Below are positions 9,981 through 13,139 of a DNA stretch of 21,481 bases, in pieces. The notes under the pieces were generated by a model. The model searched no databases and had not been told where the DNA came from. It saw only the letters and a list, made by a program, of their open reading frames with translations. The DNA comes from a virus. How positions within the stretch are numbered: position 1 is the stretch's first letter; each line of letters opens with the position of its first letter. The DNA is taken from the IMG/VR virus record IMGVR_UViG_3300006920_000306, positions 1 to 21,481 of that record, one strand, 5' to 3'. Made by a program: the position numbers and the translations under genes.

Positions 9981-10607
9981 ATGGGATCTAAGAAGATTCA
10001 CAAAAAGGAAGACCAGAAATACCGTGACTTCCTATACTTAGACAACAGACCGCCCACAAGTGCTAAGTTCTATTACATTGCTGTTCGGTGGGCTCGTGAG
10101 TATACAGACCTACAACCACGACAGATAGAGTTTATGCTCTTTATATACGACCTTGAGTTCTTTACTGCGGAGTGGGTAGCCAAGCAGCTGAGCGTCAGCT
10201 ACCCTCAGGCTAAGGATAAGCTTATAGCGCCATTGGTAAATCAAGGATACCTATATAAGTATTTCGACAGGTTTGCTGTTCCCTTAGATGATGAGAGTAT
10301 GTGGTTTAGGGAGGAGCACCGATGGAACTTCCGTGTGCGCTATGCGCTAACGCAAAAAGGACGATTGTTTCTGTCGCGTTTCTATAAGGTTATTGCTGGT
10401 GATGAGAAGCTGCGCCTTGAATATCACGAGCGCACCGTCCACAAAGAGAAGATACCTAAAAAGCAGAAGGGCCCTACAAAGACCCGACTGCGACATACTA
10501 AAGGGGTAGAGGATAGCCCGATGGCTAAGAAGCTCCTACAGAATAAGATTAATGCTCGGAAAGAATCCGAAAGGGCATCTCAAGAGAAGCGTTCTCGTGA
10601 GGAGTGA
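9981..10607 (+). CDS. Winged-helix (MarR-like) transcriptional regulator
   Basis: I use ATG 9981 (MGSKKIHKKEDQKYRDFLYL...); a TTG two codons earlier is less likely. The product is 208 residues. A MarR-like order is visible: a helix in LQPRQIEFMLFIYDL (about 43-57), the recognition region WVAKQLSVSYPQAKDKLIAP (about 64-83), LVNQGYLYKY leading to a wing with RYALTQKGRLFL (about 125-136), and a very basic C-terminal tail (KIPKKQKGPTKTRLRH). It is the only plus-strand gene inside the leftward late block and is read away from the 319-residue gene. It probably binds the symmetrical promoter between them and regulates itself and the packaging genes; that is inference. Its last 59 bases overlap, head-on, a 54-residue minus-strand gene. 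Confidence 0.75.
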   Translation: MGSKKIHKKEDQKYRDFLYLDNRPPTSAKFYYIAVRWAREYTDLQPRQIEFMLFIYDLEFFTAEWVAKQLSVSYPQAKDKLIAPLVNQGYLYKYFDRFAVPLDDESMWFREEHRWNFRVRYALTQKGRLFLSRFYKVIAGDEKLRLEYHERTVHKEKIPKKQKGPTKTRLRHTKGVEDSPMAKKLLQNKINARKESERASQEKRSREE

Positions 10608-10713
10608 ACTTACCCTCGTGAGCCATTAGAAAGTAACGACCGCCTTTGTTCATCCAGTGATAGCCCTCTGGTGCCTTGACCATCTTTTTAATATCTTTCT
10701 TTTTTGTTTTCAC
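10549..10713 (-). CDS. Small basic late protein of 54 residues, unknown
   Basis: GTG 10713 overlaps the TGA of the homing endonuclease as GTGA. The product begins MKTKKKDIKKMVKAPEGYHW and continues MNKGGRYFLMAHEGKF with an end FRILSEH. The PEGYHWM...G.YFLM.HEGKF.PH pattern looks like a genuine conserved small phage protein with an aromatic beta hairpin. It shares the MKxKK start with three upstream genes. The 3' end lies antisense to the last 59 bases of the winged-helix regulator. The start was probably coupled to the 79-residue gene before the endonuclease arrived. Confidence 0.7.
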   Translation of the reverse strand: MKTKKKDIKKMVKAPEGYHWMNKGGRYFLMAHEGKFTPHENASLEMPFRILSEH

Positions 10714-10733
10714 TTCTTTGCTCTGTTTTTAGC
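10710..10733 (-). repeat. Right-hand copy of the duplicated gene end flanking the endonuclease
   Basis: These 24 bases, read on the minus strand, encode A-x-N-R-A-K-K-stop and match 20 of 24 positions of 11477-11500. The two copies bracket the endonuclease coding body, and each ends in the TGA that overlaps the next gene's GTG. Confidence 0.7.
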
Positions 10734-11480
10734 GGCCTTCATAAAACGACGCTCATCGTGTAGCGTTCGAGTCAATCTCCAATGTTGTTTATTTGAGAAA
10801 AATTTCTTCCTGTATTCAATAAGTTCATCTGAACCCTTTATGAACCAAGCTACATTTCCATATGCAACGACTTGTTTTTTTGAGTTCAGCTTATGTAATG
10901 TCTTTGTAGACACCCCTGTTTTTTCGTAAAATGAGTCAGGATTTTCAAAAACAACAATGTCTCCGTATGCATTTTCAAACTGCATACCAAAATAAAAAGA
11001 TTTTTTCCTGTTTTTATCTCCCGTATACGCAGACAAGAAATGAACATATGATCCTTTTGATACATTATATTTTTCTGATATATCAGAATATGATGCGCCA
11101 TTAATGTACATATCTATAATTTCGTCTTTGTATTTGTAAAGAATTGGGGGAGGAGACCCACCTACCCCTCCAATCTTAGCGTTGTAGTTATTTTTTGACC
11201 TAACCCAATTGTAATCTACTAAATATGATTCTTCTTCGTAAGCTTCTTCTTTTGTATCAAAAAAAGAAAGTATCTCTAACTTAAAGTTTTTATATCCGTA
11301 TTTATTTATTGCTTTAATTAACGGAGACGTTCTATTTGCTCTTAGTTGAGACTTTACATTTTTCTCATTTAATATTCCACAACCAATATATCCATCATTT
11401 AAATTATCAGTGCTATGGACTCCGACATATGTCTTGCCATTGATTATACACTTTGTTTGATATGTAAAATGATAATTCAC
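10710..11480 (-). CDS. GIY-YIG homing endonuclease (free-standing)
   Basis: The start is GTG 11480, overlapping the TGA of the 79-residue gene; the product is 256 residues. The N-terminal nuclease domain shows FTYQTKCIINGKTYVGVHST followed by DGYIGCG (GIY-YIG core), AINKYGYKNFKLEILSFF (about 60-77), a catalytic-type Glu in EEESYLV, and YNAKIGGVGGSPP. The DNA-binding part has a helix-turn-helix (IIDMYINGASYSDISEKYNV, about 124-143) and a NUMOD-like segment ending VVAYGNVAWFIKG. Such enzymes cut phage lacking the gene and spread by repair. It is visibly richer in A+T than its neighbours, indicating recent transfer. The last residues (KNRAKK) copy the end of the upstream gene, as described in the findings. 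Confidence 0.92.
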   Translation of the reverse strand: MNYHFTYQTKCIINGKTYVGVHSTDNLNDGYIGCGILNEKNVKSQLRANRTSPLIKAINKYGYKNFKLEILSFFDTKEEAYEEESYLVDYNWVRSKNNYNAKIGGVGGSPPPILYKYKDEIIDMYINGASYSDISEKYNVSKGSYVHFLSAYTGDKNRKKSFYFGMQFENAYGDIVVFENPDSFYEKTGVSTKTLHKLNSKKQVVAYGNVAWFIKGSDELIEYRKKFFSNKQHWRLTRTLHDERRFMKAAKNRAKK

Positions 11481-11500
11481 TTTTTGGCTCTGTTTCTGGC
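11477..11500 (-). repeat. Left-hand copy of the duplicated gene end flanking the endonuclease
   Basis: This is the true 3' end of the 79-residue gene (A-R-N-R-A-K-K-stop). A diverged second copy, with 4 mismatches in 24, ends the endonuclease at 10710-10733. Confidence 0.7.
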
Positions 11501-11716
11501 TCTATTTAAAGATTGATGTTCCCAGACAATACGTCCAGATTTAGTATGTGATGCGTCCTTTCCATCGCCATTGCCGTACTTGCCAGCCTTGCGATTTATC
11601 TTATTAAGGAAAGCCCGATACTTCTTACGCTCCTCGCTGGAGTGATATTTGGTATCGTATGCCTTCTTCTTTTGTTTGGCTTCAGGATTTGAGTCGTAGT
11701 ACTTCTTAGTCTTCAT
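11477..11716 (-). CDS. Small Lys-rich late protein of 79 residues
   Basis: The product is strongly basic (MKTKKYYDSNPEAKQKKKAY ... SEERKKYRAFLNKINRKAGK) and contains a Gly/Asp turn (YGNGDGKDASHTKSGR) and the end HQSLNRARNRAKK. It may bind nucleic acid or polyanions; this is suggested by charge only. It starts 8 bases inside the end of the preceding 58-residue gene. Downstream, its TGA overlaps the GTG of the homing endonuclease, a junction the endonuclease probably inherited from the original 54-residue neighbour. Confidence 0.75.
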   Translation of the reverse strand: MKTKKYYDSNPEAKQKKKAYDTKYHSSEERKKYRAFLNKINRKAGKYGNGDGKDASHTKSGRIVWEHQSLNRARNRAKK

Positions 11717-11882
11717 CTTCCTCGTAGAAGCAAGCCTTCACCTTGTAATGGGTAGGCATCATCTTACCAGCCTTAACAGCAGCCTTGATTTGAGCCACAG
11801 CTTCCTCCAATGAAGGAGCCTTGACCATAATCATCTGGCCATCGTCCATATATCCTCCGTCGTTGTACTTCTTGATTTTCAT
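11706..11882 (-). CDS. Small late protein of 58 residues with KKYxxGG motif
   Basis: ATG 11882 overlaps the TAA of the 187-residue gene (TAATG). The product begins MKIKKYNDGGYMDDGQMIMV and continues with a Lys/Ala-rich helix (SLEEAVAQIKAAVKAGKMM) and an acidic end (CFYEEDED). The KKYNDGG start repeats the KKYEGGG and KKYEDGG motifs of the neighbouring 187-residue protein. No function known. The shared motif suggests a common sorting or binding signal within this cluster, which is inference. Confidence 0.72.
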   Translation of the reverse strand: MKIKKYNDGGYMDDGQMIMVKAPSLEEAVAQIKAAVKAGKMMPTHYKVKACFYEEDED

Positions 11883-12445
11883 TATCTACCAGTTCTTTTT
11901 TTCTTCATAGCCCCTGCTGCTGAGTCTGTTCGGGCGATTTGATCATTATAGTACTTTGTGGCGTTAAGATAATTTTTTTGCTCGTTAGAAAGCATTGAAG
12001 AACTTTGAAATCTCTTAGACATTTTCTCTCTTTCTCTGCGTGCCCACTCATTGTACCATCTAACTTCGCTTTCTGAAACTGGCTCTCCTGCCGCCATTCT
12101 TGTAAGAACTCCATAAGGCTCCTTCATTTCACTGCGTGCTGGGACCGATTTGGGTGCAACGTCACTTGGATGTTGAGAATATTTCTTTGCATATTTCTTT
12201 TTGGGATCAGTAACACTACCGCCATCCTCGTACTTCTTTACCATTCCTCCTTTGGAGAACTTATCGCGAAGCTTCATAAAGCGCTCTTCGTACTTGGTAC
12301 GCTGGGCTTCTCCACCAACGGGGCTGGAGGGCGTATTGCGATACTTGCGCATCATCTCATCAAACTCCTTTTGCTCTTGGGGAGTCATAGGCTTCTTGGA
12401 GTACTTCTTCATCTTTCCTCCGCCTTCATACTTCTTGGCTTTCAT
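11882..12445 (-). CDS. Basic late protein of 187 residues with repeated KKYxxGG motifs
   Basis: The product starts MKAKKYEGGGKMKKYSKK and has a second motif, MVKKYEDGGS, near residue 70, separated by a charged helix (QEQKEFDEMMRKYRN). The remainder is polar and probably disordered or helical (SESEVRWYNEWARREREKMS), ending MKKKRTGR. High Lys/Arg and low hydrophobicity rule out a membrane protein. It may be a packaged or scaffolding-type protein, but I recognise no family. It is followed directly by genes with the same N-terminal style, forming a small cluster between the lysis genes and the endonuclease. Confidence 0.75.
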   Translation of the reverse strand: MKAKKYEGGGKMKKYSKKPMTPQEQKEFDEMMRKYRNTPSSPVGGEAQRTKYEERFMKLRDKFSKGGMVKKYEDGGSVTDPKKKYAKKYSQHPSDVAPKSVPARSEMKEPYGVLTRMAAGEPVSESEVRWYNEWARREREKMSKRFQSSSMLSNEQKNYLNATKYYNDQIARTDSAAGAMKKKRTGR

Positions 12446-12470: not shown

Positions 12471-13139
12471 TTAGGGGCAAATACAAGGATCAGTAAACGG
12501 ACAGGGGCATCCCTCTATCTTTACATCACTTGATGGAATTGGCGTTCCTACTGGATAGGGGAAGCCCTCTTTTGCTTGGGTAATGGAAGTCATACCCGAT
12601 ACAACAGGAATGGCAACACGCAAAGGAACAGCCGCCTCATTGATAGGACCGTAACACTTTGCCAATAATATATCATTCTCCTCTTTCCATATCTTACAAG
12701 GCATACAGAACATATTGCTCATACTTGTACTTGGATGATCGGTATTGACAGTAAAGGCTCTGTTGACAGGAGTAAGCAGTTCCCACGTCTTTGTTTGTGG
12801 GTCGAACTGAGGAACACTATCGGTAGCAGGATCAAAGTACCAGAATAAAGACCATACAGTGCTGTCGGTTCCATCGGGAGACTGAGGGCTGAATCCAGTA
12901 ATAGCCAAATTATTGATAGAAGGTCCATCCATTACTGGGCAGATAGCACAAGCCTCTTGAAATTCCTTGCCCTCTACCATCATAGTCCGTCCTGTAGGAA
13001 TGGCACCCGAAGCGCCACAAAAAGCATAGGGTCCAATATGAATCTGTAGAACGCTTGCTGGATGATTGCGTGTATCAACTTGAGACAATGCTGTAGACGA
13101 AAGACCTACAAGTGCAATTAATAATAGTAATTTCTTCAT
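12471..13139 (-). CDS. Cys-rich exported protein, coupled to the endolysin
   Basis: The 222-residue product has a clear Sec signal peptide, MKKLLLLIALVGLSSTALSQ, with likely cleavage after ALS-Q or ALSQ. The mature part contains many Cys in pairs or short spacings (CGAS, CAIC, FCMPC, GCPCPFTDPCICP), suggesting disulphides or metal binding in the periplasm. ATG 13139 overlaps the endolysin TGA (ATGA), so it is translated with the lysis enzyme. The location suggests a lysis accessory such as an outer-membrane disruptor or regulator, but there is no transmembrane segment or lipobox typical of spanins. It may be a protein captured from the host; function unknown. Confidence 0.78.
   Translation of the reverse strand: MKKLLLLIALVGLSSTALSQVDTRNHPASVLQIHIGPYAFCGASGAIPTGRTMMVEGKEFQEACAICPVMDGPSINNLAITGFSPQSPDGTDSTVWSLFWYFDPATDSVPQFDPQTKTWELLTPVNRAFTVNTDHPSTSMSNMFCMPCKIWKEENDILLAKCYGPINEAAVPLRVAIPVVSGMTSITQAKEGFPYPVGTPIPSSDVKIEGCPCPFTDPCICP

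Follow-up and report, generated by a model that had tools for sequence, protein, structure and literature searches.

Organization of the locus

The window examined here is a stretch of 21,481 nucleotides, positions 1 to 21,481 of the IMG/VR virus record IMGVR_UViG_3300006920_000306, and the genes under study lie on its minus strand. A 58-residue gene (11706 to 11882), syntenic with the relatives described below and used as a flank control, is followed by a 79-residue ORF (11716 to 11477) that matches the PHROG 6437 family over its whole length (phrog_6437, E 2.6e-24) and is referred to as the target gene. Next come a 256-residue GIY-YIG ORF (11480 to 10710) and a 54-residue gene (10713 to 10549), whose protein shares 64-90% amino acid identity with homologues in contigs L081-L105. 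The target gene ends in AACAGAGCCAAAAAGTGA, where GTGA overlaps the GTG start of the GIY-YIG ORF at 11480; this ORF ends in turn in AACAGAGCAAAGAAGTGA, where GTGA overlaps the GTG start of the 54-residue gene at 10713. The original prediction, which drew attention to two ends reading NRAKK-TGA, each overlapping a GTG and agreeing at 20 of their last 24 bases, is accurate in this respect on the minus strand; over the last 51 bases the agreement is 31/51.

The 256-residue ORF matches the Pfam GIY-YIG domain (PF01541) with 25.1 bits, above the curated cut-off of 22.6, as well as the homing endonuclease family phrog_314 (E 1e-29). Its body (10761 to 11480, minus strand) has a GC content of 0.314, as compared to 0.426 for the window. 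Single-sequence queries retrieved no relatives of the endonuclease from viral contigs, and one scan of a genome collection was likewise empty; the relatives in viral contigs discussed below were found by alignment queries. They share 47-48% identity with the window endonuclease in L119 and L310 (48% over residues 3-228 for L119) and 42% in L312, and 26 columns, including E84 and N100, are invariant across five homologues. Searches of PDB sequences with the endonuclease and the 79-residue protein returned nothing useful, and no phage isolate matched the region by blast. The endonuclease forms an ORF of its own, complete with start and stop codons, and an Rfam search of positions 10400 to 12000 found no intron and returned only one sub-threshold sRNA hit, so that a group I intron was rejected. 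Judged by these signatures, it is a Seg-like free-standing homing endonuclease outside any self-splicing intron or intein. It lacks the C-terminal extension of its relatives, which is a cysteine-rich end in L119 and another module in L310 and L312, and therefore may be inactive.

Comparison with empty-site relatives

For comparison we used IMG/VR contigs in which the site is empty, three of them close relatives (L001, L075, L080) together with L073 and L069/L070. In all of these a homologue of the 79-residue gene is followed by the 54-residue gene without an endonuclease, bearing out the expectation of an inserted homing-type endonuclease gene and of phages with the uninterrupted gene order. 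The further expectation of an intact junction stands for the order of the two genes and fails for the junction sequence of the closest relatives: in L001, L075 and L080 it consists of AAATGA, a spacer of 35-36 nucleotides and an ATG start rather than GTGA. In L073 and L069/L070 the two homologues overlap by ATGA without a spacer.

The window and L001 share 96.7% nucleotide identity up to window position 11562, where homology stops in the blastn alignment, while the blocks shared with L075 (91%) and L080 (89%) extend to 11556. The L075 block includes the 58-residue flank (L075 1010-1336 against window 11882-11556, 91% aligned identity), synteny with L075 holds on both sides of the locus, and past 11562 this contig shows chance matches only. 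Homology to the empty relatives resumes at window position 10760, at HDERRFMKAAKNRAKK, well upstream of the 24 bases first noted. The two breakpoints lie only 7-13 bp apart in L075, so that the insert replaces L075 1331/1337-1343. From the blastn breakpoints and base-by-base reading, the insert (10761 to 11561, minus strand) measures about 795-801 bp, or roughly 0.8 kb.

These boundaries divide the target gene into a native N-terminal part of about 52 codons (11562 to 11716, MKTKKYYDSNP...KYGNGDG), identified by its identity to the close relatives, and a 3' end (11477 to 11561; KDASHTKSGRIVWEHQSLNRARNRAKK followed by TGA) that those relatives lack. The target-gene homologue of L075 has 72 codons and ends in GNGDG-MDYDHDERRFMKAAKNRAKK; all close empty relatives carry such a MDYDHDERRFMKAAKNRAKK-like tail, here called type A, and none the window's tail, type B. 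Identity between the window gene and those of L001, L075 and L080 is accordingly 0.88-0.98 in the N-terminal part and 0.19 in the tail. The type B end is common elsewhere in the PHROG 6437 family, such as in Syn5 gp50 and many other phage contigs, whereas among the loci fetched for tail comparison the window alone contains both types.

The second tail is that of the endonuclease. Its last 51 bases match the native 3' end of the target-gene homologue at 49/51 positions in L080 and 47/51 in L075, as opposed to only 31/51 for the present end of the 79-residue gene, and the GC content of this segment (10710 to 10760, minus strand; HDERRFMKAAKNRAKK followed by TGA) is 0.451, phage-like and unlike the insert. 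Taken together, the breakpoints and these matches place the insertion, as read from the alignments, inside the 79-residue gene rather than at the junction: it lies about 25 codons in, between GNGDG and HDERRF. On the same reading, the last 17 codons of the endonuclease, counting the stop, originally closed the target gene and were moved onto the endonuclease as its in-frame C-terminus, and the 79-residue gene has received a foreign ending of 27 codons. The mobile unit would thus comprise a replacement tail and a GIY-YIG endonuclease. We did not find the donor of the window tail and endonuclease. The similarity of the two ORF ends that was first noticed (20/24) arises because a single gene family, with its conserved NRAKK-stop, supplies both; over 24 bases the present end of the 79-residue gene matches the native tails of L080 and L075 at 20/24 and that of L001 at 16/24.

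Recurrence beside PHROG 6437 genes

The same endonuclease subfamily immediately follows a PHROG 6437 gene in six other contigs (L119, L169, L200, L310, L312 and L324), as does the endonuclease of L311, which groups with that of L200, and the phages with this arrangement differ among themselves. Wherever a close empty neighbour was available, the target genes were alike in their N-terminal part and unlike in their tail: identities were 0.93 and 0.22 for L119 against L280, 0.81-0.88 and 0.29 for L169/L200 against L201, 0.95 and 0.38 for L312 against L113, and 0.98 and 0.19 for the window against L001. L310 and L324 lack such a neighbour. Tails were thus discordant in 4/4 endonuclease-bearing groups with a close empty neighbour as compared to 15/132 empty genes (Fisher p = 3e-4), a result to be interpreted with caution as the loci were partly gathered with endonuclease-bearing queries and the independent groups are few. 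Row L200_80, an endonuclease-bearing locus cut by a contig end, was left out of the empty neighbours.

Occupied genes also resemble one another in their tails, which are 0.47-1.0 identical in pairs not involving the window. Pairs whose N-terminal parts are only 0.24-0.31 identical still share 0.59-0.79 of their tails (window again excluded), a range in which only 0.5% of empty pairs reach a tail identity of 0.6. The window tail is not of the type carried by the other endonuclease-bearing loci. A survey of 84 Seg-like loci, comparing the tail of the upstream gene to that of the endonuclease, gave no convincing new case, and ranked the window second with a score of 36 (99.9th percentile of mismatched pairs, 38); such a survey is insensitive because native and new tail need not be alike. 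Among endonuclease-free PHROG 6437 genes, about 11% differ in tail type from their nearest neighbour by N-terminal part; these tails may be scars of lost endonucleases. The discordance in 15/132 empty genes implies that tails also move by other recombination.

The clearest parallel is L312, for which the cultured Flavobacterium phage elemoE_6-9C (L113) represents the empty state. Identity between the two is 92.2% as far as the GNGDG codon, the break point common to the window and L312, and 91.4% beyond the insert, starting with the final 19 bases of the native gene, its stop among them, so that the L312 endonuclease ends in the native RGKKK-stop; all 68 of 68 elemovirus records match the flanks only and not the insert. 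In L324, a relic of the native type B tail (SKSDTPGDKRARG) directly follows the endonuclease stop. The native tail retained ranges from 17 codons in the window and 6 in L312 to an untranslated relic in L324.

L169 and L200 bear on the extent of the mobile unit. Their flanks are 65-73% and their N-terminal parts 82.5% identical, whereas the tail is identical at 135/135 nucleotides and the start of the endonuclease at 98.7%, and the drop in GC content from 0.50/0.48 to 0.31 coincides with the tail rather than with the start of the endonuclease. Near-identity of both segments within divergent flanks shows, at the level of nucleotide comparison, that tail and endonuclease were transferred as one unit in this pair; for the window element joint movement would follow by likeness. 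In L169 (3001-3216) the endonuclease is a remnant with a large internal deletion and the swapped target-gene tail is intact, as would be expected if the host gene needs its tail.

A mirror image is seen in Yersinia phage TG1 (L118 482-1500), where a Seg-like endonuclease lies upstream of gp47. Identity to the empty relative phiR1-RT is 98.3% up to about 50 bp into gp47, after which comes the endonuclease; the gp47 that follows it has a complete start and only 77% nucleotide identity to phiR1-RT. By its alignment, TG1 is a case of a displaced native 5' stub combined with a foreign copy of gp47.

Several neighbourhoods were recorded alongside. In L313 (449-1787) a related endonuclease precedes a PHROG 6437 gene, and in L120 (2971-4107) another precedes a small protein (phrog_4590) with a weak Pfam HNH match (E 0.018) and an N-terminus resembling PHROG 6437; a relationship between the target family and small HNH proteins is possible. 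Between the PHROG 6437 gene and the 54-residue gene, L020, L021, L023, L061, L063 and L103 have a cargo spot, with a gap of -4 to 1760 bp and contents that differ between phages, including a methyltransferase-like ORF of 194 residues and a 231-residue protein resembling the window ORF at 12471-13139. In the cyanophages L111, L112 and L114 the PHROG 6437 gene (Syn5 gp50) adjoins the small terminase gene and has a small HNH gene after it, and this neighbourhood suggests a role in packaging.

Origin of the arrangement

We consider it probable that a Seg-like GIY-YIG homing endonuclease, together with a foreign target-gene 3' end, invaded the 3' part of the PHROG 6437 gene by nuclease-driven homing. 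The most serious alternative, although still unlikely, is that ordinary phage recombination moved a neighbouring tail and endonuclease passively, without involvement of the nuclease. Phage genes are mosaic, tail swaps are also seen in empty genes, as mentioned above, and the endonucleases of the window and L169 look truncated, all of which would fit. Passive transfer does not readily account for one endonuclease subfamily being found at one gene family across several phage backgrounds, for entry at the same codon in the window and L312, or for breakpoints so close in the empty relative that they suggest a break at that position.

The presence of both tail types in one locus would also fit a tandem duplication, in which adjacent target copies carried a type B and a type A tail, and the second, invaded by the endonuclease or fused to it, lost its N-terminal part. 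This is very improbable, given that among the loci fetched the two types co-occur in the window only, that the breakpoints fall 7-13 bp apart in a relative with a single copy, and that L312 has the same anatomy against a single-copy relative. No endonuclease-less relative with two tandem copies was seen.

The original prediction held that the endonuclease was inserted exactly at the stop/start junction, carrying a copy of the last codons of the upstream gene and so preserving translational coupling. The 20/24 match and the GTGA overlaps on both sides are what led to this reading, which the breakpoints refute and which retains hardly any probability: homology breaks inside the 79-residue gene (11562 for L001, 11556 for L075) rather than at its end and resumes at 10760, the end of the endonuclease fits the native end of the relatives far better than the present upstream end, and the nearest empty junctions have a spacer and ATG. 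Nothing was copied; the upstream end is foreign, the native end is displaced, and the native stop region merely stayed in place downstream. The four differences proposed as a date for the insertion give none, because they compare two alleles that had diverged before it. A target-site duplication was likewise ruled out, as the two ends are different alleles of which only one is native. The earlier observation was thus a real signal read in the wrong direction, and shows that a displaced stub may be taken for a duplication or for a piece of an endonuclease. An assembly chimera, conceivable for an uncultured virus contig, can be dismissed as the least credible explanation, with both flanks syntenic with the same relatives, reading frames intact, the anatomy recurring in independent contigs and its mirror image present in the isolate genome TG1.

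Under nuclease-driven homing, the endonuclease would cut empty alleles at or near the GNGDG codons, a position deduced from the breakpoints; cuts are predicted only in empty alleles, no more than tens of bp from GGNAAYGGNGATGG. Repair with an endonuclease-bearing genome as template would then copy tail and endonuclease together, anchored by homology on the left side and, on the right, by a short or fortuitous match close to the native stop, which would explain the differing lengths of native tail left behind in the window, L312 and L324. Entry right after the conserved GNGDG codons would leave the host gene complete but chimeric and the downstream 54-residue gene undisturbed, and in-frame joining to the displaced native 3' end would give the endonuclease 16 host codons and a stop. 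The divergent tail would rescue the target gene and probably remove or alter the cut site, rendering the carrier immune.

If this is correct, a conserved phage gene can remain whole with a free-standing endonuclease gene inside it, and homing is able to exchange gene segments in addition to inserting between genes. Phage gene trees, too, could be led astray by swapped tails. As elemoE_6-9C is cultured, empty and about 92% identical to an occupied phage, the cut site, the immunity conferred by a swapped tail, and transfer are directly testable.

Comparison with known systems

T4-like Seg enzymes are free-standing endonucleases encoded between genes, which engage in intronless homing and have cut sites at a distance of hundreds to thousands of bp (PMC2988022). 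The window enzyme resembles them in being GIY-YIG (phrog_314) and free-standing, with a start overlapping the upstream stop, and co-conversion of flanks would be expected; unlike them, it lies inside its target gene, with a replacement end in the mobile unit and a displaced native stub left behind. Endonucleases within phage coding sequences are known from the split genes formed by mobE in Aeh1 nrdA and mobA in T4 gene 60 (PMC2988022). There the split pieces reassemble, whereas the window gene would be restored by a foreign end.

Replacement of the 3' end of an entered gene is familiar from the prophages e14 and P21, which provide icd with a new one. In their case a whole prophage is integrated site-specifically by an integrase, as opposed to a lone endonuclease gene in the window.

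The closest precedent, by analogy of anatomy, comes from fungal mitochondria, whose mORF hybrid genes are described for atp6 of Allomyces macrogynus (Paquin et al., 1994) and for atp6, atp9, cox2 and nad3 of Glomus sp. (PMC3630166). There, an endonuclease ORF near the 3' end of a gene is accompanied by a foreign C-terminal segment that forms a hybrid gene, and the native segment, still like that of a close relative, is displaced downstream; in one Glomus case the enzyme is of the GIY-YIG type (PMC3630166). The window shows the same succession of an in-frame foreign 3' end, endonuclease and displaced native end, and the displaced end matches close relatives in the window (49/51 to L080), L312 and L324 as it does in fungi. 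It differs in its phage host, in the association of a Seg-like subfamily with a single phage gene family and, in the window, in a displaced end that forms the C-terminus of the endonuclease itself. The fungal hybrid is transcribed, as determined by RT-PCR (PMC3630166), while that of the phage is predicted from sequence. Among openly licensed papers we found no report of replacement ends in phages. We tentatively raise the possibility, at somewhat less than even probability, that tail-swapping homing endonuclease elements form a class in phages, as counterparts of the fungal mORFs, in which an alternative target-gene end would serve as a rescue-and-immunity cassette and the stop of the target would be borrowed. 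The C-terminal diversity of PHROG 6437 would then result from repeated invasion and loss, discordant empty tails being old scars. The window case itself is well supported, and represents a new variation, in phages, on an anatomy known from fungal mORFs.
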